Below, in pieces: positions 2,395-53,300 of a DNA stretch of 64,000 bases (within the stretch, counting starts at the first letter, position 1; every line of letters starts with the position of its first letter). The translations under genes were made by a program, and so were the position numbers. Source of the DNA: Liolophura sinensis (Eukaryota > Mollusca > Polyplacophora > Chitonida > Chitonidae); contig NC_088296.1 of NCBI RefSeq assembly GCF_032854445.1, forward strand, positions 3,869,246-3,933,245, in the 5' to 3' direction. Under the pieces are notes generated by a model. The model saw only the letters and a list, made by a program, of their open reading frames with translations, had not been told where the DNA came from and did not search any database.

Positions 2395-2878
2395 TGAGCT
2401 TTTTGTGGGGATTTTGTGCGGCAGATTCAATTTACATTGTCTTTGTATACGTTTTTCTTTTACATTTGATGCATCTTGCGTCGTCTATTTATATGGATTT
2501 ATTTTACATGTGATGTATTTTTCGTCCTCTGTGTATACAACTTTCTGTTACATATGGCGTATTTTGCGTCCTCTATGAGTTTGTTGTACATCTGGTGTGT
2601 TCTGCATGAGCGTGTTGTTCTGTATTAGATTGCTCTGCATGTAATGCACTTTGTGTTTGCAGCGGGTTTGTTATTTCTCTGGTGTATTTTGTGTCAGCGG
2701 GTTTGTTGTTCTTTTGATGTATTTTGTGTCAGCGGGTTTGTTGTTCGTCCGATGTATTTTGTGTTAGCAGCGGGTTTGTTGTTCCTTTGATGTATTTTGT
2801 GTATGTGGGCTTGATATTCGTCCGATGTATTTTGTGTTAGCAGCGGGTTTGTTGTTTTTCTAGTGTATTTTGTGTCGC
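2395..2878. repeat. Irregular 37-46-bp tandem repeats
   Basis: Two adjoining degenerate arrays. The left one (about 2395-2600) repeats 'ttacatgtgatgtattt..cgtcctctgtg'. The right one (about 2650-2878) repeats 'gcgggtttgttgttc' followed by 'gatgtattttgtgt', about six units of 37-46 bp. The small minus-strand ORF across the right array is a by-product of the repeat. Confidence 0.7.
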
Positions 2879-2903
2879 GCGTCAATGGCACAGGTCTCGT
2901 GCC

Positions 2904-3192
2904 TGGTATCATTCGCGCGCAAAAGGGACCGTCCTCGTCCCCTCATTTCCTGCCAGCAGGCTGCGCTCCAGATAACTACTACTGATCTATAGCGTGTAGG
3001 TCTGCTTAATATGGTCGCGAACGATGACCTGATCCCTTCACCCCGCTCCTGGCGGCACGAGGACGCAGATAATCTGGCGCGAATGGTACCATTTTCGTGC
3101 CTTGACCTTCGGCTTATGTCCCGCTGGAAGAGAAGACGACGACGGTCACCGTTCGAGACCACGTCCAGATCGTACTTATCTGGAGCGCAGCC
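2904..3192. mobile_element. Fold-back (inverted-repeat) element
   Basis: An outer 17-bp arm at 2959-2975 (ggctgcgctccagataa) is perfectly inverted at 3176-3192. A second inverted pair is near 2914-2928 and 3076-3091 (tggta(c/t)cattcgcgc). The segment is GC-rich compared with its AT-rich flanks. It is probably a MITE or fold-back element, but neither termini nor a target duplication could be fixed. Confidence 0.45.
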
Positions 3193-3199
3193 CTATGAC

Positions 3200-4698
3200 C
3201 GAAATTGACGTGTTTCCCTGGGTCATTCTTAAACTTAGACTTTAAACTTATGAAACGGACAAACTTGTGTAGGGTGCCAAAAAAATATAGATGAACAATG
3301 TTCTTAAATATTGTCTGAACAGAAATTGCTCGGAAACTATGTATAAATGTCACCTAACACCACCTGTGGAATGTGTAGATATAGCTTGTGACAAAGAAAA
3401 TAAATAAACTACAATAACCAACATATCAGCTTAACCCGCACAAAATCAGAACATTACACCATTAGAAAGTTTCCAAAAACAACAACTGTTACCGACTTTA
3501 GTAATTCTTTCTTTTCCACAAATTGTGCTGTGGAAGAGCCATAGAGTAATCAGGAATTTACCAACAATATAAAATAATTCTACAAAAATGTTTTATCCAC
3601 CAGTGCCACTAGTATGGTGTAATTTAGGTAAGGAAAGTTCAAATATAATCTTCTGAAGAGTAAGAAATTGATGTAGCTTGGTAAACAACAATTTATTTAA
3701 TATTTAGAATTATTTGCTCTCCCAAATGTATCAGTTTGGTTAGAGGACTCCATTCATAATAGCTATACCAAAGATTCTAGCTCATGACCTTTTCCTTTAA
3801 ATTTTCCATCCTCTTGCAGACTTTATCTTCATGATATATTACCATAGTTCTCGATGAGACAAGCCGAGTAATCAGCGTGCCAGCGCGGCACAATGACCCA
3901 TGTAGGCGGGGATATAGTTCATGTAAAGTGAAAGCCCGCTTCTCAGCGTTAATTTAATTCAAAATGATAGGACTGATACCGTGAACACGAGTCTATCCGT
4001 TGACCTGAAAATCGTGTTCTAAAGCGTGATTTCGAATTACATGAAGAACATGACTGATACGCCCTCAGGCTGATGGGATCGCACCATATTTTCTAATTCC
4101 ATAGGGGTGCACTAGTTTAAAGCAAGTCTTCGAGCCACCTCATGCCAATAAGTCGTGCAGCCAGGGGTTTCCTGTGTCTCCATTACGTTAGATGATAGTT
4201 GTGCGCAGTAATTGTAAACCAGCCTAAAACTAGACTTGATCATTTCGCGTATAGCTCGGAAGTGGGCCTGTGATGTGCATTGTAGGCTTACATTCTTAGG
4301 ATAAGAAATGAACACAATGAATTTATCATATTTCCTTCCACACTGGAGAATAGCGAGAGATAAACACCTTACCATTTGTTTGCGAACATTATGATTATGT
4401 GTTTGTCTCGTTATTAACATACATTGCAGCTGATGGTGGAAAGATATCACATAGAACCATGGACAAGGATGGATAGATATCACATAGACACAGGAGGATA
4501 TAGAAAGATGCAAGAAAAACACTATATCAAGAGGGGAATCAGTGCGGAGAAGGGGCGGTCATTCGATCAAAGTACGCGAAGACCTCAGATGAAAACTACT
4601 GACCACGAACCTCATGTGAACAATGCACACAAATACACACAAAGATTTATCATAGCTGTAGCTCAGTTGCCATCCGACGTTTTCTCATCAGTATATTT
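3200..4698. other. Intergenic, nothing recognised
   Basis: Only chance frames. A short direct repeat, 'agatatcacatagaacc', occurs near 4441 and 4475. No supported gene. Confidence 0.5.
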
Positions 4699-8118: not shown

Positions 8119-8608
8119 CCCAAATACATGTATCTTATACCTGAAGCCCCACCCTTTCTGTTGAAGGTGTTTGCTAATTGGCTGGCCTTACCTTTAAATC
8201 AGCAGACTCTCGTTTTCACACACCAATCTGCTTTTCACGGATGGTGCTGTATAAAGGTGTCATCACTGTCAAACACGTCTGGCCAAATTGTCTTGATCAG
8301 ATCTTTGTCAAAAAAATGTCAGGTACATGATAAATGCTAGAATCGTCAAATGTCTAACTAAGCAGTTATTTCCTCTCAGGGAAGTGAGGCGCTCAAACTG
8401 TCATATATCATATGTAAAGCAATGCTTCTTCAGCAAAAGCGACAAAAAATACTGTATCCTATATGTTGTTGAAAGAGAGGAACAGGCACTGCACTGTAGA
8501 TGGAGACTGTACTGTGTTGAATTTTATATTTTCGTAAATGGGATAACCTGTATTGGTGTCAGTCTAAGTAATTAGCTGGTTTTATTTCAGTGAAAAACCG
8601 AGCGTGTA

Positions 8609-9280
8609 ATGGCTGAAAGCAAGGAAAATCGTGAAGAAGTTCTCACATGCCCGATATGTGTGCAAACATTCCGGAAACCCGTAACGTTACCTTGTCAGCA
8701 CAGTTTTTGCAGGGAGTGTATTGCTGTGTATGCTGACAAGTCTAAACCTGGACAGACAGATGAGGTCACCTGTAGCACGGGGAGTGAGGGTGTTCACCAG
8801 CTGATCTCATGCCCTGTATGTCGGACACCAATCAGTCTGGGAAGGGAAGGTGCGGCTGGTCTGCCTCCCAACTTTCACCTGGCAGAAATAGTGGAGAGGT
8901 TCTCTTCTGCTGTGAAGGTTGAGGATGACATCCCATATTGTTCTCTGTGTGGTGAGGATAATCAGGCTAAAGCTGTCAAGTTTTGTACCGACTGTTGTTT
9001 ACTGTATTGTAAAGACTGTTTGGCTTCTTTTCATCCCATGATGGGTGCTATGAAGCGTCACTGGCTGATTTCGTCCCAGGAGTACCTCTCTCTGGAAACC
9101 TCACAGCGACAGACCAGTGGCAGGGATGAACAATCAACTCAGCAGCCGTCATGTCCAAAACATGGTCAGCCATTCGGCTTGTACTGTGTACCGTGCCGGC
9201 TGGTGATCTGTATGGGGTGTGTGGTTGACCATCCGGAACATGCTGTGCGGGATATACCATCTGCAGCGGAGAATGCCAAG
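8609..9280 (+). CDS. TRIM exon: RING, B-box 1 and B-box 2
   Basis: 224 codons, ending at donor AAG|GTAATG in phase 0. RING ligands are C14, C17, C29, H31, C34, C37, C68 and C71. The C37-C68 loop is long (30 residues between) and carries an extra C55. The first B-box starts at C111/C114 and runs through C126, C129, C134, C137, H142 and H151. The second (C182, H185, C193, C196, C201, C204, H208, H211) is the classical B-box 2 pattern. After the donor the frame runs only three more codons to a stop, which supports the splice. Confidence 0.93.
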
Positions 9281-12200
9281 GTAATGCGATAAAGACATTC
9301 GTATATTAGTCAACAACCACAGTGAATATTCTGAGTCAATAATCGTGAAGTCAATTCCAAACATAACGATTAATACGACATACGAAAAACTAAGAAGTTG
9401 TGTAAGTTCAAAATTACTTTGAGATCATGCAAAGAGAAGTAGTAAACAGTTTTCAATGATGTTAGAAACACGCAAGGATATTCTAAGCAAATGACTTAAA
9501 TCACAATTTAAATCGTGTACCGCGCTAGTATATAGGTCGATAATCACTATAAATGTCATGATTTGGAATGGTATAATGACCCATAGTTTGTAATCTATAG
9601 TGAAGAATGTTGCTTTTTGTCCTGTACTGTAGTGAGTCGTTTTAAAGACGATCTTTTTAATGTAGCATTTTTTCCATTACAGCCAGCGGTCTTGAACAAG
9701 ACCAGTGAACTGGAGAAAGTGCTACAAGAAACTAAAGAATCACTGTCAGGAGTTACGAGGCTGTACAATAAGATACAGGTTGGTAGTTTTGATGACACTT
9801 GGTTAACTTGTGATTTATTGCATACTTGGTGACTTATTTTTCTTATGAAAATTATAGCTACTCTCAGTGACACAGACGCGATATGCCCACCTCAGGCAAC
9901 TCCAGTAGGTACATCATCGTCGATTATACGCTGTCATAATATCTATATTGTATATACGCACTCCACATGTGATGGGGACCGGCCCCGATAGCACAGTTGG
10001 TCGAACCTCCACTTCTTGAGCGGTAGACCTGGGTCAACTCACACCTAAGACTTTAAAAGAGGAAGTTGTAACTTCCTTTCTTGGGGTTCAGCATGAAGGC
10101 GATAGAGTAAGGACTGTTTGACCCGTATCAGTATAATGGCTCGGGCAGGGCGGTTTAATTGTCTTCGGAAAGGCGTCTCAGTGAAGCAGCACTAAATAAA
10201 AGAGCGGTGGAAATCCGTCCTGCAACAAGGAGGCACATTACATGCACCTTAAGGATTCCTTCGACATCTGAAAAATTGTTAAGTACGACGTTAAACCCCA
10301 AGCACTATCTCACTGATATGTGATGGGGCGACACCTGGGATTTAAAGACGACTCTTAATCCCAGGGTGACACTCTTGGTGTTTGAACCAAACAACTGGTG
10401 ATCTCCACAGCATAAAGGCTGCACCATCTCACCCTGCTCAGAGCACCAATTGTGATATTGAATTAACGTTTCTGAGTTGACACATGTGAAGTGCATTGTA
10501 GATACAGTTGTGTGGCGCTGTTATTCCACTCTTGTTACACAGGCATGTATAATTTCTTGAACACACCTGTAATGGTCTAGATAAGATAATAAACGTTCTT
10601 TTTGTTTGTCAGGAAACCCAGGAACTTCACACTCAAGAGGTAGAAAGGGCTTATTGTGCAGCCTTGGAAGCCTTACAAGCCTGGAAACAACAGTCCTTAG
10701 ATGGCATAAAAACCCGCTATTCACAGTGGAGTGTGGAGTGTAGCGCCATTCTCAAACATTTCCAGCTACAGGCTCAGGAAATGGAGAGGATGGTCGAGGC
10801 TTCCAATGATTTATTAGCGTCAACAGACGTCGAGTTTTTACAGGTGAGTCAAACATGCACAATCTTTATCATTGGTTCAGCTACCTTCAACAAATTAAAT
10901 ACCTCAGCTAACCACACAGGATAGTGTCCATAATTTGTCAGCTACAGAGAACATATGTAGTTTTCTTAGTTGTACGGTCCTTAATCTTGGTTCTGACCAC
11001 TCATTTGTAAACAAACGTGTGTTGTGTAAGTACACAGAGGCGTCTTATTTACCATTGTCACATTATTGAACTTGTGAATCATCACCCTTGATTTATGCAC
11101 AGGTATATTTCATTTAAGGATAAATTTTACTAAAGGCTATTATTTTCATAAACATGCCGTAAAATAATCACAAAACAGCCGTAGAAAGGGATACTAAGAG
11201 AAAGACCAGAATTAAGCCATTTCTTTATTTTCTTGATATCGTTGGTTTATATCCCTCTCTTTAGAAGACTTTTACCCTGGTCTTCTGATTTATAGTCCAC
11301 TATGTATCTTCTCCCCACAGCCGTTACGGTAAGGGGAGATAACTCTTGTGTATTTCACTACCATAAAACTTTTTGCCATTATACTTGTGAAATTGACAAA
11401 GGGTTGCTTCTCTTACAGAAGTACCAAATTAAATCATTATCACAACTGAGTATTTATACAACAACTAACTTCAAGTTGGTTACTGTTTTGCTTGTAATCG
11501 GTAGAACAAACCGTTTCATTTTCAACTATGATTGGGTGATCGGGAAATCCTAGGAGGAAAAATTGCACTGTAACAAGCTCCATAGAATTCATTACATTGG
11601 AATTTAGAGCTGATTTTGTCAATGTATTTGACTAGGGAATGGTCTAATTGTTTAAGGGAAGAGCCAATGGCCCCTGTGTACTATAGGGGAGGTAAGACAT
11701 TTCCTTTATAGCTGCGTTCTTGTTACATGTTGTGGTGAAAGTATACCCAAATTCTTCTAAAACTTGGGACAGATATTGGTAGTGTTAAAAATAGAATATT
11801 ACATTTCTTTACCAGCCTTTTGGAAACGTAAAGATATGAGTATGTTGTTCATTACATGGTCTAATCATGTGAGAAAAAAGAAACTCAATAATCCTGCCAG
11901 GATTACATATATATTGGCTAAAATGAGCAGACCAGGTGACCCAGATTTTAGAAGGAAAAGAGTAGGTAAAGAATCTTTGTTTCAGTTATCATTGTTACAT
12001 AATTGTATATGTATGCTCAAATCTGTTTGTTGACAGGGTTCCACGGACTTCACCAAAACGTATGTATAAATATGTTATACTTCTTTAGTTTTTTTATACA
12101 CGTGCAAATGGCTATTATCAGCAGATGTATTTCTGTAAAACTGAGTACCAGCGCTGTAGTTTTCCAAAACATGACCCAAGTGTAAAGTATATCTAGTGTT

Positions 12201-15200
12201 CAAACATACATTTGTTCAGACATACATTTGTTCAGAGAAATGAGACCTAACCTGCTAGGAAAAGTACACTGTACATCATGACATTTTCAGGACTGTATGG
12301 TACACAGGATTACCACACAACTGTGTCTCTTTGTTTTCTTTCCTCTTCTCACAGAATTGATGACCAGCTGAATGAGATAAAAGCAGATCTGGAAAAACAT
12401 GAGGTCAGCAGACAGAAGCTTCTAAATTCTGTACAACATGACCAAGTTGTTACTAGACAGGTGACTGTGAAAGAGACAGTACAAGAACGTCAGGACTTAG
12501 AAGCAGCAGTCGGTGGGCAAATGTCACCTCTACGTGTTACAAGTAGGTTCTTATATGTATAAAAGGTATACAGTTGTGTGTGCCCAGAGACCATAGATGA
12601 CTGCAAGGTTTACACTAGTATGTGCATCAAGGACACAAACATAAGTGGAGAAGGCGCACAGTTTATGGGCAAAATACACGGTAGACTGTGTTAAGAAGAA
12701 AACAAACCGATATGAGTTGTAACACAATAGGGTGCGCCCAGAAAACAAATAGTATTCCAAGTGTAACGAAAGTGAGAAGTGCTTACAAAAAGCACAGATA
12801 GTGTAGGGTGTGAACAAAACACAAACTGATGTCACACTTACAGTAGGGTGTGGGCAAAGGACACAAAGTAATGCAGTGTACAATAGGGTGTACACAGAAG
12901 ACACAAACTAAAGTGAGCCATGCATTAGGGTGTGCACAAAATATAATTTTATGTCAGGAGTCCATTGAGTCATCCACAACAGATACAAACTAATATGAGG
13001 CATACACTAGGGTGAGCAAAATACATACAAACTAATGTGAGGTATGCAATAGGGTGGGCAAAACAGATACAAACTAATGTGAGGTATGCAATAGAGTGGG
13101 CAAAACAGATACAAACTAATGTGAGGTATGCAATGGGGTGGGCAAAACAGATACAAACTAATGAGAGGTATGCAATAGGGTGGGCAAAACACATACAAAC
13201 TAATGAGAGGTATGCAATAGGGTGGGCAAAACACATACAAACTAATGAGAGGTATGCAATGGGGTGGGCAAAACAGATACAAACTAATGTGAGGTATGCA
13301 ATAGGGTGGGCAAAACACATACAAACTAATGTGAGGTATGCAATAGGGTGGGCAAAACAGATACAAACTAATGTGAGGTATGTAATAGGGTGGGCAAAAC
13401 AGATACAAATTAATGTGAGGCATGCAATAGGGTGAGCAAAACAGATGCAAACTAATGTGAGGTATGCAATAGGGTGAGCAAAACAGATGCAAACTAATGT
13501 GAGGTATGCAATAGGGTGGGCAAAACAGATACAAATTAATGTGAGGCATGCAATAGGGTGCGCAAAACACATACAAGCTAATGTGAGGTATGCAATAGGG
13601 TGGGCAAAAGAAAAATACAAACTAATGTGAGGTATACAGTAAGGTGTGCAGATAGGATATAAACTAATGTGAGTTGTACAGTATGGTGGGCAAAACACAT
13701 ACAAACTAATGTGAGGTATGCAATAGGGTGAGCAAAACAGATACAAACTAATGTGAGGTATGCAATAGGGTGGGCAAAACTGATACAAACTAATGTGAGG
13801 TATGCAATAGGGTGGGCAAAACAGATACAAACTAATGTGAGGTATGCAATAGGGTGGGCAAAACACATACAAACTAATGTGAGGCATACCCTAGGGTGGG
13901 CAAAACACATACAAACTAATGTGAGGTATGCAATAGGGTGGGCAAAACAGATACAAACTAATGTGAGGTATGCAATAGGGTGGGCAAAACAGATACAAAC
14001 TAATGTGAGGTATGCAATAGGGTGCGCAAAACACATACAAACTAATGTGAGGTATGTAATAGGGTGGGCAAAACAGATACAAACTAATGTGAGGTATGCA
14101 ATAGTGTGGGCAAAAGAAAAATACAAACTAATGTGAGGTATACAGTAAGGTGTGCAGATAGGATATAAACAAATGTGAGTTGTACAGTAGGGTGTGCACA
14201 GAAGACACAAACTAATATAGAGACATAAAATAAGGTATGGTACTTGTAAAGTGTACACTGGGGTCAGAAGTCGAAAGGAAATCAGTAGGCTGTCCTGAGA
14301 AATTGAAAGCCTATGCAAGCTACTTATAGCATGGTTTGCTCAGAAATAAAAAAAAAATATAGTGTATTCAACAATATGTTATTTTCTGCAAAAAAGGAAA
14401 GCACATTGCAGAGTTATATATCGGCAGGTGTACAGTTAGAACAGGACAGATGGTAGTGTACCCCTCGGTGTCTGGGTGATATTTACCTCGTGTTCAAATA
14501 AGCAAGTGCACTGTTAGTACAGGACACGTGGCAGGGCACAGCATGTTTGCAAATCAGCAGGTGTACTGTTAATACAGAACAGATAACATATTGTACAACT
14601 GAGTGTCTGAGTGATGTTTACCTCATGATTGTGTACAAATCAGCAGGTGTACTGTTAATACAGAACAGATAACATATTGTATAACTGAGTGTCTGAGTGA
14701 TGTTTACCTCATGATTGTGTACAAATCAGTAGGTGTACTGTTAATACAGAACAGATTACATATTGTACAACTGAGTGTCTGAGTGATGTTTACCTCATGA
14801 TTGTGTACAAATCAGTAGGTGTACTGTTAGAAAAGGACAGATTACATAATGTAGCCCTCAGTGAAATAAAAAGAAAGTAACTCGGAATATTGAAGTCATA
14901 ATATTAGTCTGTATTTCTGTCACTATGTTTGTGGCATCATCAGGAAATATATATAGTAAATAATACATAGGTTTGTATACATGTAGCCGCGTAGGTGTAC
15001 AATGCACGCATGTATAAAGACAAAACACTGTATGGCAAGTTAGCAGAAAGACAGAAATGGTTGAGCGCGAGTGAGTGAGTGCTTGGGGTTTAATGTCGTA
15101 CTCAATGGTTGAGCGTGAATGCCATAATATGAAGCTGGTATTGCATGAGAAAGTACTGAGGAAAAGGGAATAGAATGTACAGTTGAAGAGCCAGAGCTCT

Positions 15201-15231
15201 CTTTCTCTCTCTCTCTCTATATATATATATG

Positions 15232-15270
<39 letters not shown>

Positions 15271-16610
15271 ATGTCTCTTATACCAGCTTAATATTATGCA
15301 GTTCCTCGTATCTGTTTTTGTTTATTATTATTATTATTATTATTAATATGAAAGGGTGGAGATTCCATGTATGTAAGCCCATATATTTACAATTGTTGAT
15401 TTACATTTATTTCATCACTTAATATACGTTTTTCTTTCTTAGTCTTGAAATATTTAACTGCAGAAAATATTTACTGTGAATCCAGCAATTGATTACTACT
15501 AATAATTCTGATAGATTAAATAGCCTTTGCAATTGTTGCAATGAAAGTCACTGGGTAAGTTATTTGTGATGAGTTACCTCCCTTACTACACAAACGGCTT
15601 CGGTACTCCACGAACGACAACAGGCCTACTACAGCTTCATAGTGAATTGTGTGTTCAAATGTGCCATAACTGACAACTAAAACCAATGACTGGATAGAGG
15701 AAGGTATTATTCTTGTTGTAGGTGATAAGTTTCGAACAAATTAGATCACTAAAAGTCTGTATTTTAATCCAGTATTTAGCCTATGTCTTAGGGCTACCCA
15801 TCATTTAGTGACGGATCCTTGTCGAAGTTCAACTCTTTCATACTGGCTGAAAATGACAGAGATCTGTGTATAAATTAAATTTGTGTCAGCAGTATATGTC
15901 ATTTTATTCCAAGAGATTTTGTTGAGAATTAAAAATACAGTATGTGTACAGGTATTTAAACTTTAGTCTTACAGCGTGTGTTTATGGTTTGCTGTTGTTT
16001 ATACTGCTTCTGTTGTGTTTTTGCAGAGCCGACGCTGAGATTCACAGAGACAGACGGCAGTGAGCTGAGAATCAATGACAGCGGCTGTGTGGTAAAGGCT
16101 GAGGGCTTGTCCTTGGATGGGAGGTGGAGGAGAGCTGTGACAGACGGGCGTTACCAGACGGGCAGGTACTACTGGGAGATACACATCACCTGTTCACATG
16201 AGTGTGGCTGTGCTGTAGGAGTGACACAGGAGAGCTATGGCGTGAGGGGGAGGACAGTCCCTCGCCGTAACTCCTGGTACATTGGGATGGTGTACAGTGG
16301 TGATGAGGTTGGGTGTTATAGTCACAGTGGTGGTGGTGAGATCAAACCTGACTATCGACAGTGGAGACGTTACACACGACCTCATCACGTGGGTGTGTAC
16401 CTGGACTGTGATGACCACACACTGACAGTCCTGGACTGTGACAACAACCAGGTAATGTACACTGACAGTGATGTTATCGTCACAGAGCCTCTCGTGCCAT
16501 CGGTTGAGTTTGATGTCTGGTCTGGATCTGTGTCTGTGTCTGCTCGTCTGGTAACGGGTGACTTTGCAACTCTGCCTCCAGTTCTCTGTGATATGATAAG
16601 CACTTTCTGA
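8609..16610 (+). CDS. TRIM-family E3 ubiquitin ligase, RING-B-box-coiled coil-B30.2/SPRY (six coding exons)
   Basis: Join 8609-9280, 9683-9778, 10613-10843, 11321-11328, 12355-12542 and 16027-16610: 1,779 nt, 592 residues and a TGA stop. The protein has a C3HC4 RING (14-71), two B-boxes (about 111-151 and 182-211), a coiled coil (about 225-395) and a B30.2/SPRY domain (about 400-585). TRIM proteins of this layout are RING-type E3 ubiquitin ligases. The coiled coil dimerises and the SPRY domain binds the target. Many act in innate immunity, but no target can be named here. The start is firm: an in-frame TGA at 8591-8593 directly follows a good splice acceptor (tttatttcag), so 8609 begins the second exon of the transcript and a non-coding first exon lies upstream. 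Introns hold a SINE (intron 2) and a 42-bp minisatellite (last intron). All exon phases agree (0,0,0,2,1). Only the 8-nt exon is uncertain. The orthologue is not determined. Confidence 0.9.
9424..9482 (+). repeat. Fragment of dispersed repeat family Y
   Basis: Contains 'gtaaacagttttcaatgatg' followed by 'aaacacgcaaggatattc'. It matches the 3' half of the longer copies at 38.6, 58.1, 60.9 and 63.5 kb. Lies in TRIM intron 1. Confidence 0.5.
9683..9778 (+). CDS. TRIM exon: start of coiled coil (96 nt)
   Basis: Acceptor 'tttttccattacag' and donor CAG|GTTGGT; exactly 96 nt (residues 225-256), phase 0 on both sides. Heptad-like residues such as 'LEKVLQETKESLSG'. In vertebrate class IV TRIM genes the exon after the RING/B-box exon is also 96 nt, so the length itself supports the model. 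Confidence 0.9.
9978..10317 (+). mobile_element. SINE family A, full length, with target-site duplication
   Basis: Starts with a tRNA-like head (A-box-like 'gatagcacagttggtcga') and ends with 'gacgttaaaccccaagcac'. It is flanked by a perfect 11-bp duplication 'atgtgatgggg' at 9967-9977 and 10318-10328. It sits inside TRIM intron 2 in the same orientation as the gene. Confidence 0.88.
10613..10843 (+). CDS. TRIM exon: coiled coil (231 nt)
   Basis: Acceptor 'ctttttgtttgtcag' and donor CAG|GTGAGT; 231 nt (residues 257-333), phase 0 on both sides. It encodes an amphipathic helical segment ending 'STDVEFLQ', the position where TRIM coiled coils run into the linker. 231 nt is the usual length of this exon in vertebrate class IV TRIM genes. 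Confidence 0.92.
11321..11328 (+). CDS. Proposed 8-nt TRIM micro-exon
   Basis: Exon 10613-10843 ends in phase 0 but exon 12355-12542 starts in phase 2, so an exon of length 3n+2 is needed between them. The best candidate is 'ccgttacg', with acceptor 'cttctccccacag' and donor GTAAGG. It adds Pro-Leu and the split Arg joined to the next exon. Vertebrate relatives have a 23-nt exon here, also 3n+2. Weaker alternatives are a 14-nt exon ending before 'gtaaag' near 11966 and a 5-nt exon before 'gtaaga' near 11691. Confidence 0.45.
12355..12542 (+). CDS. TRIM exon: linker helix
   Basis: Acceptor 'tcctcttctcacag' and donor CAA|GTAGGT; 188 nt, entering in phase 2 and leaving in phase 1. Encodes residues 337-398, helical and charged ('DDQLNEIKADLEKHE'), joining the coiled coil to the SPRY domain. 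A 42-bp minisatellite begins just downstream of the donor. Confidence 0.85.
12550..14220. repeat. 42-bp minisatellite in the last TRIM intron
   Basis: About 28 near-identical 42-bp units between 12985 and 14150 (core 'actaatgtgaggtatgcaat' then 'agggtgggcaaaaca'). They are preceded from about 12550 by progressively more diverged units and followed by decayed ones. As 42 is a multiple of three, long frames stay open on both strands (up to 305 codons on the minus strand). They have no domains and are repeat artefacts. A few units carry 'gaaaaat' insertions (13604, 14112). Confidence 0.92.
14545..14850. repeat. 86-bp tandem repeat, ~3.5 units
   Basis: The unit starts 'aaatcagcaggtgtactgtt' and recurs at 14551, 14637, 14723 and 14809, 86 bp apart and nearly identical. 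Diverged related sequence extends left to about 14420. Lies in the last TRIM intron. Confidence 0.85.
15192..15346. repeat. Microsatellites (CT)n, (TA)n and (TTA)n
   Basis: A (ct)n tract runs into (ta)n with a 'tgcaata' interruption at about 15196-15270, followed by (tta)n at about 15318-15346. They create meaningless Tyr-Ile frames on both strands. Confidence 0.9.
16027..16610 (+). CDS. TRIM terminal exon: B30.2/SPRY domain
   Basis: Acceptor 'ttctgttgtgtttttgcag'; the first two bases complete a Lys codon from the previous exon (phase 1). PRY-SPRY hallmarks are visible: 'GRYYWEIHI' (about 446-454), 'AVGVTQESYG' (about 463-472) and 'GVYLDCDDHTLTVLDC' (about 524-539), as in the family's G-x-x-YWE and GV-x-LD motifs. 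The stop is TGA at 16608-16610. The domain looks complete. Confidence 0.93.
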
Positions 16611-26612: not shown

Positions 26613-26752
26613 CTAGCAATGGTCTGGACTGATGCTAGCCATTTCCTCGTCTGAAGGGATCTTGTAAGCGAAGGTGACGGAGTTGTGGAACCTGCCGCTG
26701 GAGACAAGGCGCACCACGGAGTGCTGACAGCCCAGGATCATCTCATCACGAT
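26613..26752 (-). CDS. CRHBP: CRHBP terminal exon
   Basis: Acceptor 'tgtatttccctgtttcag'; 140 nt with TAG at 26613-26615. Encodes 'DEMILGCQHSVVRLVSSG', 'RFHNSVTFAYKIPSDEEM' and a final 'SPDHC', giving cysteines nine and ten. It is separated from exon d by a 7.2-kb intron full of repeats. The acceptor itself lies inside the first unit of a 45-bp tandem repeat. Confidence 0.92.
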
Positions 26753-29700
26753 CTGAAACAGGGAAATACAGAACATGAGTTAAAGGCCCATTACGATCTG
26801 AAACAGGGAAATATACAATATGAGTTCAAGTCTCATTACGATTTGAAGCAGAGAAATATACCATATGAGTTAACGTCTCATCACGATCTGAAACAGAGAA
26901 ATGTACAACATGAGTTAACGTCTCATTACGACCTAAAACAGGGAAATATACAATATGAGTGAACGTCTCATCACGATCTGAAAGAGGGAAATATAGATCA
27001 TTAGTTAAAGTCTCATGACTTTATATACAGACAGTGCATGCCGAGCGATGGAATATCAAGAATTGTCAGCTCAAGAGAAATGGTGTTAACAGATACTTGC
27101 GAACAAAGGGAGATAACTGCAGTAGAATAAACGCACGTGAACGTGGGATATTATATGAGCATGACGTTGATTTGCATGAGGGCGTGATCGTTATACATCC
27201 TGTTTTGCGGAAAATCATGCTACCGTGTATTGACCAATGGAAACCAAGAATCACTCTATGAGGTATGATAATATTCATTAGATAGCAGATTTAGAAAAGC
27301 TCTATGCCAGGATAACCAATATTTCTATCAACAGAAAAAGAAGGGTTATAATTTACCTGTTAAAATATAGACTGAGATTGATGAAAATAATGTATTCAAT
27401 CAATCAGTGTAAAACTTAAAAAAAAAACTCAGACAAAAACACATGCAGGAGTAAAACAGATCAATGAAATATAAGGAATGCCGCGGTCAATCAGTCAATT
27501 ATAGTGAGTGTCAAAATCAATCAATCAAACATTAGGAGTGTCACAATTAATCAGTCAAACGTAAGCAGTGTCGAATTCAATAAGTCGAATATAAGGATAG
27601 TCGCAATCAAACAGTCAAAGGTAAGGAAAGTTAAAATCAATCAGTCAAATATAAGGAGTGTAGCAATCCATCAGTCATATATCAAATATTTTTTTAAAAC
27701 TCCGACAAAAGTACATGTAGGAGTTTAAACAGATAAATGAAATGTAAGGAATGCCTCGGTCAACCAGTCAAATATAAGGAGTGTCAAAATCAGTCAATCA
27801 AATATAAGAGTGAGTGAGTGCTTGGGGTTTAACGTCGTACTCAACAATTTTTCAGTCATATGACGACGAAGGAATCCTTAGGGTGCATGCACGTGTATTG
27901 TGCCTCCTTGTTGCAGGACGGATTTCCACCACTCTTTAATTCAGTGCTGCTTCACTGAGGCGACTTACCGAAGGCAAGTAAGGCGCCCCGCCCGAGCCAT
28001 TATACTGATACGGGTCAACCAGTCGTTGCACTATCCCCTTCATGCTGAACGCCAAGGGAGGAAGTTACAACTTCCTCTTTTAAAGTCTTAGGTGTGACTC
28101 GATCAAGGATTAATCCTGGATCTACCGGTCCTGAAGCGGACGCTCTACCAACTGTGCTATCCGCGCCGGTCTCAAATATAAGAAGAGTCATTATTAATCC
28201 GTGGAATATAAGAAGTGCCACAACCAATAAGTCAAATATAAGAAGGGTCGAATTCAATTAGTCAAATATAAGAAGTGTCACAATCAATCAGTCAAATATA
28301 AGGGGTGTCGCAATCAATCAGTCAAATAGAAGGAGTGTCAAAGTCAGTCAGTGAAGTATAGGGGGTGTCAAAATCAATCAGTCAAATATAGGGAGTGTCA
28401 AAATCAGTCAGTGAAATATTAGGAGTGTCAAAGTCAGTGTCAAATATAAGGAGTGTCGCAATCAATCAAATATAAGAAGTGTCAAAATCAATCAGTCAAA
28501 TATAAGGAGTGTCAAAATTAATCAGTCAAAAATTAGGAGTGCTGCAATCAATCATCCAATTATAAGGAGTGTCGCAATCAATCAGTCATGTAGGAGTTAA
28601 ACCGATCAGAGGAATATAATGAATGCCGCCTTCAATCAGTCAAATATAAAGAGTGTCAATATCAATCAGTCAAATATAACGAGTGTCAATATCAATCAGT
28701 CAAATATAAAGAGTGTCAATATCAATCAGTCAAATATAAAGAGTGTCAATATCAATCAGTCAAACATAAGGAGTGTCAAAATGAAAGAGTCAAATATTAG
28801 AACTGTCACAATCAATCAGTCAAATATAAGGAGTGTCGCAATCAATCAGTGAAAGGTTAGGAGTGTCACAATCGATCAGTTATAGGTAAGAAGTTGGATC
28901 AGCTGACTCCCACTATCAATGACCGATTTCACAAAGTCAAACAAAAATTTTAAAACATTGTCGCAATGCTTTGCTTTTGGTAATGAAAGCTTACATTTGA
29001 CATATCTGTTTTAAAATAACATTTATGAGTTATTCAACATTCTAAGTTTTAGGGACAAATAATAAGTTCTAGAATGGTGATTCACATTTTGAGAGAAAAT
29101 TGCTTTCTATATTGGCCCCAGGGAGTGTAAAATGTAGGCACACGTGTTTTAAGCACAAGATCAACGAGTTCAAAGTAAGGTGTCCGAATGACAGACTCTC
29201 AATATCGGTGACTATAAGTGTGTCTTAAATAAGTATCTATGTGGAAGTTCTACCACGCAGCTAGTGGCACAAACGATTGGACATCATATCTTCCCAAGAG
29301 AGTCCACCCATCCGTTATGTCTGGGTCTTCTCACAGTTCAAGATAGCTTCCAGGAGGTCCTTTACAGAGAATTCCATGTTGCCTTCCCCATTAAAACGGC
29401 GTTTCTTATTTCCTAAATGGACTCTACTTGGCCAAATCTTCCTCAGGAGATTCCCACTGAAATTTTACGCAGGGGTCTATAATTGCTCTTGCAATTACTT
29501 CCGCTGTTGTTTTCCGCGGGCGACAACCAAAACTACTTTCCATGCGCGCCACACATTTCCTAAAGATACGTTTTGAGGACGGAATTGAATCCTTCAGAAG
29601 CACGCAATTGTAACCAGATCCTCTCGAACGCAAATCCGGAAAACTGTTTTTCCCCGTCATAGTTCCGTCCAATGACCCTTAGTATTAAAATTCGCGACCG

Positions 29701-32700: not shown

Positions 32701-35700
32701 TCTAAACGTTCTGACAGGTCACATGATGCAGTAGGACGGTTTTATTTACCTCCATTGATACAAGAGTGCGAACTCGAATCTTCCCAATGGGGTGGTTTCG
32801 GGTTCGAATTCTTTTCTCCATGATGGTGAAAGCAGTCCTCCTGTATCGTGTAACTTGTGTTCCAAAGGCACAAATGACACCTCTCCTTTAAGAACTTCTC
32901 AAGTTCACAAACCTTTAGCTGCTCAATTTTCTCCATCGTTTGTCTTCTCTAAATAACTTTTAGCGAGACTTAAGCGAAGATTTTGACAGGGCGACATGAT
33001 TCAGTTGGACTTTTTTACCTTTAGCGATAAAAGAGTTAAAACTAGAAAGTCCCGTTTTGTTTCATTGCTTGTTTGGTTGGTTGTTCTCCTCATTCATTCA
33101 CCGACTCACTGGTTTCGTTGACAATGTTTCGTCCTTTAAAAGTAGAACTGTTTCTCTTTGCCATTCGACAAAGCCTTAGCGTTAGGAATCGGACAGACTA
33201 CGACCTTAACAATGAGCTATCATGCATGCGCATTAATAAAATCCGCGCCAACGTCCAAGAACAAAACGATCACTATCCACAGGAAGAGTTAAAACATGTA
33301 AGAAGAGCAGAAACAACAAACCACGTAAACAACAACAAAGTCGTCCTCACATAGTGCTGGTTGATAATTATAACAAACTGCTAATTAATTCATTCATTCA
33401 TTTAACAACCTTGTACTTTGCAGTATTTGAACAAAATACAGATGGCAATGGTGCGTGCAATGTCTTGAATAAAAATATTGAAAGCAAAGTCAAGAGCAAA
33501 CAAGTTGTATGCCACCATATACAGAATACGTCAAAAATGTTGCTTAACTATGTTGACGAAAGAGTGAATCTCAAAGATAAAGTTCAGTTAAAAGAGTGCA
33601 AAAAGTTAGTTGTAACTGGAGTCTTCAATATTTTTTCGATTTTTCTTTAAAGACAAATAGACACTTGAAAAAAATTTGTATGGTGGATATTTGGGACCAC
33701 AGTTTGATATATATACTCTTTGTGTAATAATATTTTAAAACAGGATGTAACAAATGTTTAATAAATATATTTACACTAGAATTTGGTCTTTTCAGCTAAC
33801 AAATGTGCTGAACATGGATTTTGATCACATTTATAGTTTTAAAATATTTTTGCTTATTAAAGACAGCCTCACGATCCCGTGGCCTAGTCAACTGCCAATC
33901 ATGTAAAGTCTCCACCCACTTACGTGTCACAGAATCAGCGCCGCAGAATATTAGCCTCGGTTTCATTCGGCCAGTGTCCAATCCATTGCCGTCCATCAGC
34001 TCCACGTAGTCATTCGTCCCGCACTATAGAACCAACGACAAACAAGTACAGTGGAACATTTCAACACAGCACTGGTTGATATATTCTCGTTTGACTGTTT
34101 AGCGTGTGCGAGTGTGCGCGTGTGCGTGCATATATAAATTATGTATGTATAATGTCATGCATGCTTGGAGTTTTATGTATTGCCGGTAGGTAAAAAGTTT
34201 TCAGTCACATGACGACGAGAAGTCTTTAGGTGTTCGTGCAAATACATATACTGTGTCTTCTTGTGGTAGAGCGAGTCCATGCCGCTAAAGTGAAGCCGTC
34301 ACTGAAGTATCATGCCGGAGACACAAGACATGACACCCAACCTAGTCACATTATACTGACACTGGGCCTACCAGTCCTGTTTCCTTGCTCCAACCTGTCA
34401 GCGCTGAGCGCCAAGCGACGCAGCAGCAAGAACCATTTGTAGTCTTTGATATGACCTGACCGTGGTTTAATCCTGAGTCTACCGACTTCGAGGCGGAAGC
34501 TCTAACCATCTGGTCACCGAAGCGGTTCAGAATTACTCAGTAACCATATTGTGTACAAACTAGTCTGTAAGCTGTCCTTAATCAAGAATGTGTATCTCAG
34601 TTGTGCTTTGATTACACCTATTCATATATCCACGTTGCTGAAATTATTTATCGAGACGCACATGTAATCCCTTCGTCCCGGGTTAATCGGGTTTACGCAC
34701 AATTATGAAGCTGAGCGCCACAGATTTTGAATTTATTTATTTATTTATTTGATTGGTGTTTTATGCCATACTCAAGAATATTTCACTTGTACGACGGCGG
34801 CCAGCATTATCGTGGAGGGAAAGCGGGCAGACCCCGGTGAAAACCCACGACCATCCACAAGTTGCTGTCTGGCCCACAGATGCATGTGGAGTCATGGCAT
34901 AGCGCGGAGCGAAAGTTAGGGATATATAATTTTTGGTTTGAAGTTCACAATTTTTTTGGTATTTAAATAGTAAGGAGAAATACTGCGCTGTGGTGGATTG
35001 TTTAATCCTGACCTTGCCAGTAAGCCCAGTTTCCATGTCAAAGGCCACTTCCGGTAGAGACACTGTCACGCCCACATCAACGTTAACCAATCGGATTTTC
35101 TCCGGGTAGATGATGGACACGCTGCAATTCTTCTTGTGGCCGTAGTTTTTGAGTGTGTAATAACCATCCTGATACAGCGAGACAACGTTACAGGCTGAGA
35201 AAAAATAAGGAAAGAATCAAGATTACATGTTGTCATGTAAAAACTTGTTTTCAGAATTGCCTGTAATGTATTTTTTATCGTAAACAAATTTGATTTGTTC
35301 GAAAATGTGTGCACCATTTCTACGTGATTCTAGCACACTGAAAACATAAAGTCTGGTTTTTTCATCTTTGTGTTGACACAGATAATAACAGAATACATTC
35401 TAGAATCACTCAGAAAACAGAATTTCTGCTGATTAGTATTTTTTAGAGCAGGAAAACTTTCTGACTTATTAAATTTCTTTCTTCAGTTGAGCTTTTTCAT
35501 TTGGTTAAGCATCATTATTGGTCTTTTTCACCACTTTGATAAATACCGTGGACAGTCAGCGATTCTTGATTTGGGAGAAATGTAGATCCACCTTCTATTA
35601 GCATTGGTTTTGGGGATAACTTTGGCCTGTAGAGTTTATTTTTCTCTTATTTGTTAGGTGTTGCCTTTTGTGTCGTTTTGTAGGGCAGGCTTTACGAGGA

Positions 35701-38700
35701 TTTTGGTAGGTACTATTTGATTTGGGAGGATGCATACACTTGGAAACGTGGTGAAATGTCAGTGTCCCTGTTGTCAAGCTGACACCTCTTGTGCCTGAGA
35801 GGATCAATATTAATTTCATCCATCATGGCCTGGTCCTTCGAAATTTTGACAATTAATTTCTCAGAGGCCAGTCTGCGAGGGGCTAAGATGGTTTGGGGAT
35901 TGTAGATCTATAGGGACTGCTCAGCGGCACCGATTGTTAACATGTACATAAATGGCAAATTAATGGCAGTCTGAACCCTTTAGTTAAATGCGACAACGGG
36001 ATGACTTACGCTGTGGATTTCTGGGAAACCTGATGGTCACTCTAAAACCATCACCAGCTCGCGGTAAACGGAATTGGATCAAGGCGACGTTTTGTGAAGA
36101 GAGGTAGATTTTGGTGGGCTTGTGGGCACCGCAGAAAGTCCGGAATCGTTCGTCTAGCGGATCTTCGTGATCGATATCACCCGGGAAAACTTGTCCGTTC
36201 AGTTCCCAACCGTCCACAATCTGTGCAACAACAACAGCAAGAAGAATAAGCCACTTCCATTTCCACTGCTAATCTTCACAAAGTAGAATGACTAACACAT
36301 ATGACAGCCCACCCAGATACATTATACTAACACGAGGCCAACCAGCCATGTTTCTTTGCTCTAACCTCTGAGTGCTGAGCGCTAAAGGGTGCAACAACAA
36401 GTGCCATTTTTAAAGTCTTTGCATGGCATAACTTGACGCGGGTTTGATCCAATATCTCCAACTTCCAGGCGGACACTCTAACCATTAGGTCACTGACGTG
36501 GGCTTTAACGTCGTACTTATGAAAACGTCTTCAGATATATCACGACGAGAAGTCATTAGGTAGGCGTACATATATTGTGTCTTCTTGAGGCAAGGCAACT
36601 CCATGCCGCTAAAGTGCTGCCCCAACTGAGGTATAAGTCACGTAATACTGACAACCAGCCCTGTTTCCTTTCTCTAACGTCTCAGCGCCAAGCTTTAAGC
36701 GAAGGAATAAGAAGCACCATTTTCAAAATCGTTGGTTTGACTCGACCCGGCTTTGATCCCGGATCTACCGACTTCAATGCGGAAACTCTGACCATTAGAC
36801 CTTAGAAGTGGTCGTAACAAAGTAGGGAAGGAACTCCAGAAAATGAGGGAAGGTAATACAGCATTTAATATTCCCGCTTTATTTTGTCATTTTTAGGAAT
36901 GAGCGACAATGGTTTAAATGGAACCGAAATGCTGAATCATCTAACGTCTTGCGCCATTTTCAGACCTGCCACATATGTCATTTATGTCTACCCATAGAGA
37001 TGTAAGATCTTCGATACCAGTAAAAATTGTTTCTATATGTTCCATTTTCTCTATTAGATAAGCACAACACCAACACAGTTTATTTCCCTTAATTTTTTTC
37101 GAAACCTTTGCATTCTAAAATTTTGGCTAATTTGTTATCCAACGGTGTGGTAAGTGCATGTTTTCGTGCCGATCAGCTACCCCTTGTTTTTACGGGAGGT
37201 CTCTTGGTTGATTGGTCTATAAACGTTTAATAGGCTAAAGATTATGATCCAGAGGCCAGTGGTGCGAAACCTGCCTTAATCTCAACCAGTTTTCAACAAA
37301 AGAAATTGTGCTTTCCACAGAAAGTGAAATCTTACATAATCATGATAATGTTTCTTTCAAAAAATCCACAGGAAATCCACTCAGGTCATTTACAACAGCA
37401 GATTTTCATAATGGGAAAATTATTCATCCATTTAAAGGTGATTTTCCGATTTGAAGATATACAGTAATATAATAACAGTAACACAGAGAGTAAAACTAGA
37501 GCAGCGACGACAGTGTGATAAATAGCAAACGGTCACATGTGTAACTGGTGACATGCGGCGTCTTATCTGTTTACATCAGCTAGGGATTTATTTTATAACT
37601 TTAAATATTTAATTAGTACCAAATTACGTGCTCCCTGCACTAATGTTTATAATCTATTTGGCGATCGTCGTACAGTTTGTTTCACAAAAGTATTTAAACC
37701 ATCGTATGTTTGCTAATGGTGGCGACTGATTTTTTTCTAGGCATGGACATTACGAAATGAAATATGAATGTAAACAGGTCTGGAATAGAATATTGCGCCA
37801 TATTTCATCTAACCACCTTAAATGAAAGTTCTTAAATTTAATCGACAACAATGATGCCTATGTGGACTGCACCCTTGGACTGTGTTTATGAGGGGCTTTC
37901 AGCCTTTAGTTTCTTGCCCAAGAATTTTCCTCTAATACGACAGCAGACAATGTTATGGGTAGAGGAATGGAAGTAGACCAGGAGGTGAGGCGACCGCCTC
38001 CCACCCTGAGGCTTACAAACCTTCTGATGTAAAGCTGCAGCCAGTATAATTAAAGGCTAAAGCACAGACAGTAAAACCAGAGCAGCGACGACTGTGCGAT
38101 AGCTGGCAAATAGTCACTCGTAAGCCGTGAAATACGGCTACAGCACAGACAGTAAAACCACAACAGCGACGACAGTGTGATAGCTGGCAAATAGTCACAC
38201 GTAACCGGTGAAATACGGCTACAGCACAGAGAGTAAAACCAGAGCAACGACGACATTGTGAAAGCTGGCAAATAGTCACACGTAACCGGTCAAATACGGC
38301 TACAGCACAGAGAGTAAAACCACAACGGCGACATTGTGAAAGCTGGCAAATAGTCACACGTAACCGGTCAAATACGGCTACAGCACTGAGAGTAAAACCA
38401 CAACGGCGAGGACAGTGCGATAGCTGGCAAATGTTCACACGTAACAGCTGAAATACGGCCTCTTGACAGTTTACCTCAGTCAGGGTTTTGTACTAACTGT
38501 TCATCTAAATTCTTACATAGTGGAGAATTGCAAGCCCCCTACCACCAAGTCTTAAGCAAGAGCCATTATACTTATTAAATAATAGCGATATAAGCGTCAA
38601 GTCCGACATTTATATACCATTCGTAGTCCGTAAAGGGCGTTCCAAGTCGATAATCACAAGATCCATTTCCAAAACAACGTTTAACACTAACTCCCAAAGA

Positions 38701-44216: not shown

Positions 44217-44307
44217 TTAAAATGAATATAATTACATCCATAAAACCATCCATGTGTACACAAGAGTAATAACAATATTATTAGATGTGTGTTTTTAAAA
44301 ATATACA

Positions 44308-46202
44308 TGAATGTGTCTCATTGACGCTTGTATACACAAGGATAAAAACAGTGTAACAGTGTACATCTGATCATGTATGTGTCTCATTCAGGCTTGTATA
44401 CACAAGGATAAAAACAGTGTAACAGTGTACATCTGATCATGAATGTGTCTCATTGACGCTTGTATACACAAGGATAAAAACAGTGTAACAGTGTACATCT
44501 GATCATGTATGTGTCTCATTCAGGCTTGTATACACAAGGATAAAAACAGTGTAACAGTGTACATCTGATCATGAATGTGTCTCATTGACGCTTGTATACA
44601 CAAGGATAAAAACAGTGTAACAGTGTACATCTGATCATGTATGTGTCTCATTCAGGCTTGTATACACAAGGATAAAAACAGTGTAACAGCGTACATCTGA
44701 TCATGTATGTGTCTCATTCAGGCTTGTATACACAAGGATAAAAACAGTGTAACAGCGTACGTCTGATCATGTGTGTGTCTCATTCAGGCTTGTATACACA
44801 AGGATAAAAACAGTGTAACAGCGTACGTCTGAGCATGTGTGTGTCTCATTCAGGCTTGTATACACAAGGATAAAAACAGAGTAACAGTGTACGTCTGATC
44901 ATGTGTGTGTCTCATTCAGGCTTGTACAACATGTGTGTGTGCGTGCGTATACACAAGGATAAAAACAGTGTAACACCGTACATGTGACCATGTATGTGTT
45001 TTATTCAGGCTTGTATACACAAGGATAAAAACAGTGTAACAATGTACATCCGATCATGTGTGTGTCTCATTCAGGCTTGTATACACAAGGATAAAAACAG
45101 TGTAACAGTGTACGTCTGATCATATATGTGTCTCATTCAGGCTTGTATACACAAGGATAAAAACAGTGTAACAGTGTACGTCTGATCATGTGTGTGTCTC
45201 ATTCAGGCTTGTAAAACGTGTGTGTGTGTGCGTGCGTATTCACAAGGATAAAAACAGAGTAACAGCGTACATCTGATCATGTATGTGTCTCATTCAGGCT
45301 TGTATACACAAGGATAAAAACAGTGTAACAGTGTACCGGGATGTGTCTCATTCAGGCTTATATACACAAGGATAAAAACAGTGTAACAGCGTACATCTGA
45401 TCATGTATGTGTCTCATTCAGGCTTGTATACACAAGGATAAAAACAGTGTAACAGCGTACATCTGATCATGTGTGTGTCTCATTCAGGCTTGTATACACA
45501 AGGATAAAAACAGTGTAACAGCGTACATCTGACTATGTATGTGCCTCATTCAGGCTTGTATACACAAGGATAAAAACAGTGTAACAGCGTACATCTGATC
45601 ATGTGTGTGTCTCATTCAGGCTTGTATACACAAGGATAAAAACAGTGTAACAGTGTACGTCTAATCATGTATGTGTCTCATTCAGGCTTGTATACACAAG
45701 GATAAAAACAGTGTAACAGTGTACATCTGATCATGTGTGTGTCTCATTCAGGCTTGTATACACAAGGATAAAAACAGTGTAACAGCGTACATCTGATCAT
45801 GTGTGTGTCTCATTCAGGCTTGTATACACAAGGATAAAAACAGTGTAACAGTGTACGTCTAATCATGTATGTGTCCCATTCAGGCTTGTATACACAAGGA
45901 TAAAAACAGTGTAACAGTGTACATCTGATCATGTGTGTGTCTCATTCAGGCTTGTACAACATGTGTGTGTGCGTGAGTATACACAAGGATAAAAACAGTG
46001 TAACAGTGTACGTCTAATCATGTATGTGTCCCATTCAGGCTTGTATACACAAGGATAAAAACAGTGTAACAGTGTACATCTGATCATGTGTGTGTCTGAT
46101 TCAGGCTTGTACAACATGTGTGTGTGCGTGAGTATACACAAGGATAAAAACAGTGTAACAGTGTACATCTGATCATGTATGTGTCTCATTCAGGCTTGTG
46201 CT
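44308..46202. repeat. 66-bp minisatellite, ~28 units
   Basis: Unit: 'tgtgtctcattcaggcttgt', 'atacacaaggataaaaacag', 'tgtaacagtgtacatctgat', 'catgta'. The first units alternate 'cattgacgcttg' and 'cattcaggcttg', a 132-bp higher-order form. At least four units (near 44930, 45210, 45955 and 46115) carry an inserted 'aacatgtgtgtgtgcgtg'-like segment. Very homogeneous, so probably recent. Confidence 0.95.
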
Positions 46203-51362: not shown

Positions 51363-51482
51363 GGGCTTTTACACGGACTGTTAGGACAAAACCCTGACTG
51401 ACGTAAATTGACAAGAGGTCGTATTTCACCGGTTACGTGTCACCAGTTGACAGCTATCACACGGTCGTCGCTGCTCTGGTTT
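51363..51482 (-). repeat. Dispersed repeat family X at the array edge
   Basis: 'aaaaccctgactgacgtaaa', 'ttgacaagaggtcgtatttc' and 'cacacggtcgtcgctgctct', the inverse of the other X copies. It runs without a break into the 45-bp array. Confidence 0.75.
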
Positions 51483-53300
51483 TACTCTGTATGCTGTACG
51501 TCTTTACTTCATATATTGCTCTGGTGTAACTCTCTATGCTGTACGTCTTTACTCCATATACTGCTCTGGTGTTACTCTCTATGCTGTACGTCTTTACTCC
51601 ATATACTGCTCTGGTGTTACTCTCTATGCTGTACGTCTTTAATTGAAATGCTGCTTTCGTGTTACTCTCTGTGGTGTACGTCTTTACTCCATATACTGCT
51701 CTGGTGTTACTCTCTATGCTGTACGTCTTTACTTCATATACTGCTCTGGTGTTGCTCTCTATGCTGTACGTCTTTACTTGAAATGCTGCTTTCGTGTTAC
51801 TCTCTATGCTGAACATCTTTACTTCATATACTGCTCTGGTGTTGCTCTTTATGCTTTACGTCTTTACTTGAAATGCTGCTTTCGTGTTACTCTCTATGCT
51901 GAACGTCTTTACTTCATATACTGCTCTGGTGTTACTCTCTATGCCGCACGTCTTTACTTGAAATACTGCTTTCGTGTTACTTTCTATGCTGTACGTCTTT
52001 ACTTCATGTTCTACTGTGGTGTTACTCTCTATGCCGTACGTCTTTACTTGAAATACTGCTTTCGTGTTACTTTCTATGCTGTACGTCTTTACTTCATGTT
52101 CTACTGTGGTGTAATTCTCTATGGTGTACGTTTTTACTCCATATGCTGCTCTGGTGTAACTCTCTTTACTCCATATGCTTCTCTGGTGTTACTCTCTATG
52201 GTGTACATCTTTGCTCTATAATCTACTCTGGTGTAACTCTCTATGCTGTACGTCTTTACTCCGTCTTCTACTCCGGTGCCACTCTCTGTGGTGTACATCT
52301 TTACTCCATATTCTACTGTGGTGTTACTCTCTATGGTGTACATCTTTACTCCATATTCTACTCTGGTGTAACTCTCTATGGTGTACGTCTTTACTCTATA
52401 ATCTACCCTGGTGTAACTCTCTATGCTGTACGTCTTTACTCCGTGTTCTACTCCGGTGGTACTCTCTGTGGTGTAGGGGCCTACATCTTCACTCCATATT
52501 CTACTCTGGTTTTACTCTCTATGAAGTAGGTCTTTACTTCATATTCTACTCTGGTGTTACTCTCTATGATGTACGTCTTTACTCTATATACTGTTCTGGT
52601 GTTACTCTGTATGGTGTACGTCTTTACTTCATTTGCTGCTCTGGTGTTACTCTTTACTCCATCTTTACTCCATATTCTACTGTGGTGCTACTCTCTATGT
52701 TGTACATCTTTTTTCCGTATTCTACTCTGGTGTTACTCTGTATGGTGTACGTCTTTACTTCATATTCTACTCTGGTGTTACTCTCTATGCTGTACGTCTT
52801 TACCCTATATGCCGCTGTGGTGTTATGGTGTCCGTCTTTACTCCATATTCTACTCTGATGTTACTCTGTAAGGTGTACATCTTTACTCCATATTCTACTC
52901 TGATGTTACTCTGTATGGTGTACATCTTTACTTCATATTCTACTCTGATGTTACTCTGTATGGTGTATATCTTTACTCCATATTCTACTCTGATGTTACT
53001 CTGTATGGTGTCCGTCTTTACTCCATATTCTACTCTGATGTTACGCTGTATGGTGTACATCTTTACTCCATATTCTACTCTGATGTTACTCTGTACGGTG
53101 TACATCTTTACTTCATATTTTACTATGGTGTTACTCTGTATGGTGTACATCTTTACTCCATATTCTACTCTGGTGTTACTCTGTATGGTGTACATCTTTA
53201 CTTCATATTTTACTATGGTGTTTCTAATTATGGTGTACGTCTTCACTCCTTATTCTACTCTGATTTTACTGGAAGTATTGTACAGCGTAAAGTATATCAA
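51480..53300. repeat. 45-bp minisatellite, ~40 units
   Basis: Unit 'tctggtgttactctctatgc', 'tgtacgtctttacttcatat', 'actgc' with several variants ('gaaatgctgctttcgtg' units at left, 'ctgatgttactctgtatggt' units at right). The period is a multiple of three, so frames of 190-227 codons stay open on both strands. All are periodic Leu/Tyr/Cys-Ser or Tyr-Ser-Ile-Glu-Ser strings and should not be annotated as genes. Confidence 0.95.

Follow-up and report, generated by a model that had tools for sequence, protein, structure and literature searches.

The locus described here raises the question of whether a splice junction has itself been copied into a tandem repeat and, if so, what becomes of the splicing of its gene. 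It lies in a 64,000-nucleotide stretch of the Liolophura sinensis genome (the window, to which coordinates refer unless a contig is named), where the last splice acceptor of CRHBP had been predicted to form part of a 45-bp minisatellite. The identity of the gene is borne out by profile searches, with the CRF-BP_N and CRF-BP_C domains spread over four minus-strand exons (b, c, d and last). Exon b (36010–36220) matches CRF-BP_N profile positions 60–124 and exon c (35013–35194) contains the start of CRF-BP_C, the ends of both being set from splice consensus and frame; exon d (33924–34023), placed by its profile match and donor consensus, forms the donor side of the last intron; and the last exon, whose coding part including the stop codon occupies 26613–26752, is defined by its match to CRF-BP_C positions 80–121, the spliced protein and the end of the open reading frame. 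Joined together, the four exons score 84.8 bits against CRF-BP_C and 54.0 bits against CRF-BP_N; the part corresponding to positions 1–59 of the N-domain profile was not located. The donor GTAAGT directly follows the end of exon d at 33924; the join to 26752 is in phase 1, with CAT as the junction codon. The last exon encodes two cysteines, which, from vertebrate CRHBP, we take to be the last disulfide pair. A genome search with CRF-BP_N finds a single place, so there is no CRHBP paralogue for comparison; a structure search returned no solved CRHBP structure (a single chance-level match, E 0.74), and no mollusc CRHBP paper was among the matches listed in a literature search. The same intron contains two further arrays with closely similar 30-bp units, at 27460–27682 and 28172–28880 (Tandem Repeats Finder, TRF).

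The array on the junction is reported by TRF at 26741–27016, with a period of 45, 6.1 copies, 83% matches and 0% indels. Read in register on the minus strand it spans 26741–27019, comprising six full units and a 9-nt partial copy that extends it on the intron side to 27019, and the two readings agree on the anticipated six-unit, 45-bp periodic structure, with no indels. The in-register acceptors 1–6 precede positions 26752, 26797, 26842, 26887, 26932 and 26977, and their dinucleotides are AG (26753–26754), AG (26798–26799), AA (26843–26844, a lost site), AG (26888–26889), AG (26933–26934, as TTTTAG) and AG (26978–26979), such that AG is kept at five of the six places, among them units 2, 4, 5 and 6 as had been predicted. 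The first 12 nt of the last exon lie inside the array, and these bases (26741–26752) are matched at all 12 positions by the copies that follow acceptors 4 and 6; the expectation that the repeat includes the start of the exon therefore holds, with an exonic share of 12 nt rather than the nine first proposed. The units differ from each other at 5 to 13 of their 45 bases. When the segment 26700–27050 was used as a DNA query of the 609-Mb genome, with very common words skipped, the one match was the locus itself.

Might the array simply abut the last exon, through coincidence or an artefact of assembly? Minisatellites are abundant in the window, where 29 arrays, merged by hand from 55 TRF rows (the rows of period below 13 at 15218, 47926, 47929 and 59452 being left out), occupy 9,849 of the 64,000 bases (15.4%), so it would be no great surprise for an array to fall on a junction. 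Rows of three TTTCAG separated by gaps of 30–55 bp are likewise common genome-wide (7,781 matches vs 4,349 in a reversed control), so little weight attaches to a row of AGs as such, and it is the exon bases in register that count. On those bases a chance acceptor row was set aside: the 12-mers are identical and sit in the 45-bp register, which excludes chance for them and largely refutes coincidence, and the divergence among the units is not that of a simple assembly stutter. We regard a coincidental or artefactual array as exceedingly improbable. The CRHBP array is a mirage minisatellite, a kind already known from lancelets that the prediction did not name, with units lying over an exon-intron boundary and the splice dinucleotide kept by most of them.

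The repeated segment carries more than the dinucleotide. In each of the six units a branch-like YTNAY lies at −28, at −24 or at both, pyrimidines fill 12 or 13 of the 15 positions from −18 to −4, and the stretch from −28 to the acceptor is free of AG; judged by these signals each appears to be a complete 3′ splice site. Scored with an acceptor matrix of approximate primate frequencies, untrained on molluscs, the five array AGs rank 1 (unit 6), 3, 4, 5 and 9 among the 341 AGs scored in the intron, with values of 8.49–11.82 vs 6.34, 8.44 and 3.22 for the other three CRHBP acceptors; acceptor 6 scores 11.82 and acceptor 1 9.71. There are five strong scores (8.4 or more) in the approximately six units of this array, vs at most 0.22 per unit in the other 21 window arrays of period 20 or more, making it the only one of the 22 with strong scores in most units. 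The 25 columns that we defined as signal columns contain 11 between-unit differences, vs 18 in the 20 other columns; this lower variation is not significant (permutation p 0.053; the value is attained in 2 of 45 rotations, the true register among them), and it would be a suggestive hint that the copies are used.

How the array arose is suggested by its two ends. The intronic end repeat GTCATGAGA (27019–27011) and the exonic end repeat GTGATGAGA (26749–26741) are identical at 8 of 9 nt and lie exactly 6 × 45 bases apart. In the origin that we favour, the sequence GTSATGAGA would have stood both in the intron, upstream of the branch site, and at exon bases 4–12, and slippage or unequal exchange between these short direct repeats would have duplicated the whole 3′ splice site, that is, the branch site, pyrimidine tract, AG and 12 exon bases; later events would then have led to about six copies. 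The shared end repeats fit seeding by slippage, a mechanism that we infer from the array as it now stands. In the Haber and Louis model, as given in the available portion of the source, minisatellites are seeded by flanking repeats of 5–10 bp (PMC6947457); the CRHBP array resembles minisatellites of this type in having short direct repeats at both ends, and differs in that what has been amplified is an entire 3′ splice site.

The direction of change could also have been the reverse, with an intronic minisatellite spreading to, or replacing, an older junction, in which case the acceptor and about four codons would be repeat-derived. From profile position 80 to 89 there are 10 residues in the spliced protein against 8 in the profile, as counted from match ranges taken as ungapped, and the junction residues HRDE fall in a length-variable stretch, both of which such a capture would accommodate. 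The excess is however just two residues, and the units hold complete acceptor signals, as copies of an acceptor would, whereas the other 21 arrays hold few or none. We consider capture of the junction by a pre-existing array unlikely. That the junction was copied, as the original prediction held, is supported by the exon bases in register, by the best profile fit being obtained with acceptor 1 and by the shared end repeats, and the order of events was probably junction first and array second.

The consequences of using each acceptor can be read from the frames. Acceptor 2 would add 15 codons, open and in frame, and acceptors 4, 5 and 6 all lead to a TGA at 26828–26826, in the copy behind acceptor 3 (ORF 26826–27020); both outcomes had been foreseen, and reading the register and frames confirms them. 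With acceptor 1 (26753–26754) the CRF-BP_C match of the splice product covers profile positions 1–121 of 123 at 84.8 bits, while the product of acceptor 2 falls to 77.5 bits and that of acceptor 4 to 48.0 bits, its match being cut at profile position 80. Acceptor 1, which gives the best profile fit, is taken as the authentic site.

It is probable that the CRHBP array is a mostly silent mirage minisatellite, in which the first junction was duplicated via short direct repeats. The copy adjoining the full exon would have stayed the authentic acceptor, and most transcripts would be expected to use it, since the complete terminal exon, and the exonic signals in it, follow acceptor 1 alone; the amphioxus data point the same way. 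The additional AGs could plausibly act as decoy acceptors, and mostly normal CRHBP splicing with a possible leak is expected. If splicing leaked on rare occasions to acceptor 2, the protein would gain 15 residues, whereas a leak to acceptors 4, 5 or 6 would leave CRHBP truncated, short of its last two cysteines. Under the exon-junction rule a stop codon in the last exon is not expected to cause decay, and the truncated product would not be an obvious target of nonsense-mediated decay because this TGA sits in the last exon. The competition of copied 3′ splice sites, reportedly described by Reed and Maniatis in 1986, is said to depend on proximity and on exon sequence. The upstream copies carry just 12 exon bases each; a proximity rule could nonetheless favour a truncating site, because acceptor 6 is transcribed first and scores highest, and a leak to the upstream acceptors is a real possibility on the strength of these signals.

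An array in active use would go further, with several copies spliced and with array length and unit mutations determining how much of the CRHBP made is normal, longer by 15 residues or truncated. Several features are compatible with this: the five acceptors outscore the other three of the gene, with the high intron ranks given above, every acceptor has its YTNAY motif 24 and/or 28 nt upstream and lacks an inner AG, the frames match (15 in-frame codons from acceptor 2, TGA from 4, 5 and 6), and tandem repeats at exon-intron boundaries can alter splicing in human segmental duplications, according to the part of that report available (PMC2812944). Set against these are the loss of acceptor 3, the non-significant conservation of signals between units, the origin of the scores in an approximate matrix without mollusc training, and the amphioxus data, which, in the accessible text, suggest normal splicing (PMC3087553). 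Taking both sides together, we view such active use as somewhat unlikely, and the mostly silent array as the better account.

Whether junction arrays recur was addressed with a sample of 60 loci, comprising 30 of 138 kinase and 30 of 99 P450 matches, in which 60 internal edges of HMM matches served as approximate junctions. No array was found over an internal exon edge at these 60 edges. Arrays near an open frame were flagged in five of the loci (L023, L038, L051, L059 and L060); the four that were read (all except L023) do not cross a junction, and the L023 array, of 15 bp and 1.9 copies, lies inside the profile match. Mirages are thus not frequent at the resolution of 60 sampled edges. Arrays of period 15 or more make up 3.1% of the 227,796 bases in loci L001–L063. 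We also scanned with Pfam the open reading frames of 35 aa or more that cross the edges of 45 merged arrays of period 20 or more in the window and loci L001–L064 (where one array appears twice, under L021 and under L064); one of 122 matched, and this was the CRHBP frame. The scan undercounts mirages, because it missed a kringle mirage whose exon changes frame.

Some other repeats and gene arrangements were noted along the way. The three longest arrays in the window (12978–14216, 44306–46199 and 51471–53270) are 1.2–1.9 kb long, and rightwards-oriented TRIM-like pieces at 8594–16607 include RING and B-box (8594–9289) and SPRY (15960–16607) parts with minisatellites between them. Loci L059 and L060 contain P450 exons matching the same part of the profile, with 35-bp arrays of about 28 and 42 copies that end about 85–105 bases upstream of the likely acceptor. 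One genome stretch has eight haemocyanin beta-sandwich matches, of which one unit (L001) matches haemocyanins in the PDB. These matches indicate a mollusc host, and amphioxus, considered on account of its mirages, was set aside; a GFP search likewise found nothing, although no control responded in it.

The kringle mirage provides a second example in the same genome, at the donor side of an exon. The array of L021, near a sampled kinase match, contains repeated GTAAG-like motifs, and in the neighbouring 4 kb (L064, C7:11042300–11046300) the end of a minus-strand kringle exon runs into a 45-bp array, the mirage spanning reverse-complement positions of about 2484–3725 of that segment. The exon matches Pfam kringle positions 1–58 (54.5 bits) and, once a one-nucleotide frame change within it is allowed for, positions 61–79 of 79 (26.1 bits, below the cut-off alone); with the parts joined by an X the score is 83 bits. 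The repeat unit consists of the last nine codons of the exon together with the GT donor, and of 25 anchors, not all of them in register, 18 have GT where the donor would lie. A DNA search for copies of the array gave six matches, all within C7:11043075–11043629. Both ends of the array carry the 9-mer GATGGGACT, the copies of which are 1,021 bases apart, corresponding to 22.7 periods and not to a whole register, a spacing that counts against the favoured account. The kringle exon is about 2 kb upstream of the kinase-domain match of L021, and since both matches are on one strand this distance apart, the gene is probably a kringle receptor kinase; given the frame change, this gene copy may not be intact.

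Together the two arrays extend a little-known lancelet structure to a mollusc, on the acceptor side and on the donor side in one genome, and the short direct repeats at the array ends of both suggest how junction arrays start. The CRHBP array also lends itself as a natural experiment on how a 3′ splice site is chosen, with five near-identical complete acceptors in 45-bp steps and one loss of AG, and the choice has a readout, one copy being frame-preserving and three truncating. A broader proposal, that mirages are recurrent in mollusc genes and that the copy number of complete 3′ splice-site modules in CRHBP sets, from one individual to the next, the proportions in which this stress-hormone-binding protein is full, extended by 15 residues or truncated, seems to us doubtful.

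Among known systems, minisatellites have been placed close to genes and to splicing in several ways, each described here from the available parts of the sources. An abalone intron contains a length-variable 27-bp minisatellite (PMC6905558), and C. elegans minisatellites occur near alternative splicing (PMC4039745). In human segmental-duplication genes, tandem repeats at exon-intron boundaries can yield alternative splicing (PMC2812944); the likeness to CRHBP is in the minisatellites at exon-intron boundaries, there linked to splicing changes, and the difference is that the human repeats were described with copy differences between paralogues and with transcripts, whereas CRHBP is one locus, with no paralogue found, that is read from sequence. 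No mirage outside amphioxus, molluscs included, was among the matches listed in the open-licence literature. The closest relatives are the mirage minisatellites of the amphioxus Adh3 gene and globin genes BflGb6 and BflGb9, which keep AG/GT, for which length and somatic instability are reported, and which, to judge by the data, leave regular splicing undisturbed (PMC3087553, in the portion available). They share with the CRHBP array, which keeps AG in five of six units, the placement of tandem units on an exon-intron boundary; its 45-bp unit compares with units of 10–72 bp in Adh3 and 150–160 bp in the globins (PMC3087553). Instability and normal splicing are reported for the amphioxus mirages, whereas the CRHBP array is known from the sequence of one assembly. 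The hosts also differ, a mollusc as against a cephalochordate, but taxon is not a structural criterion.
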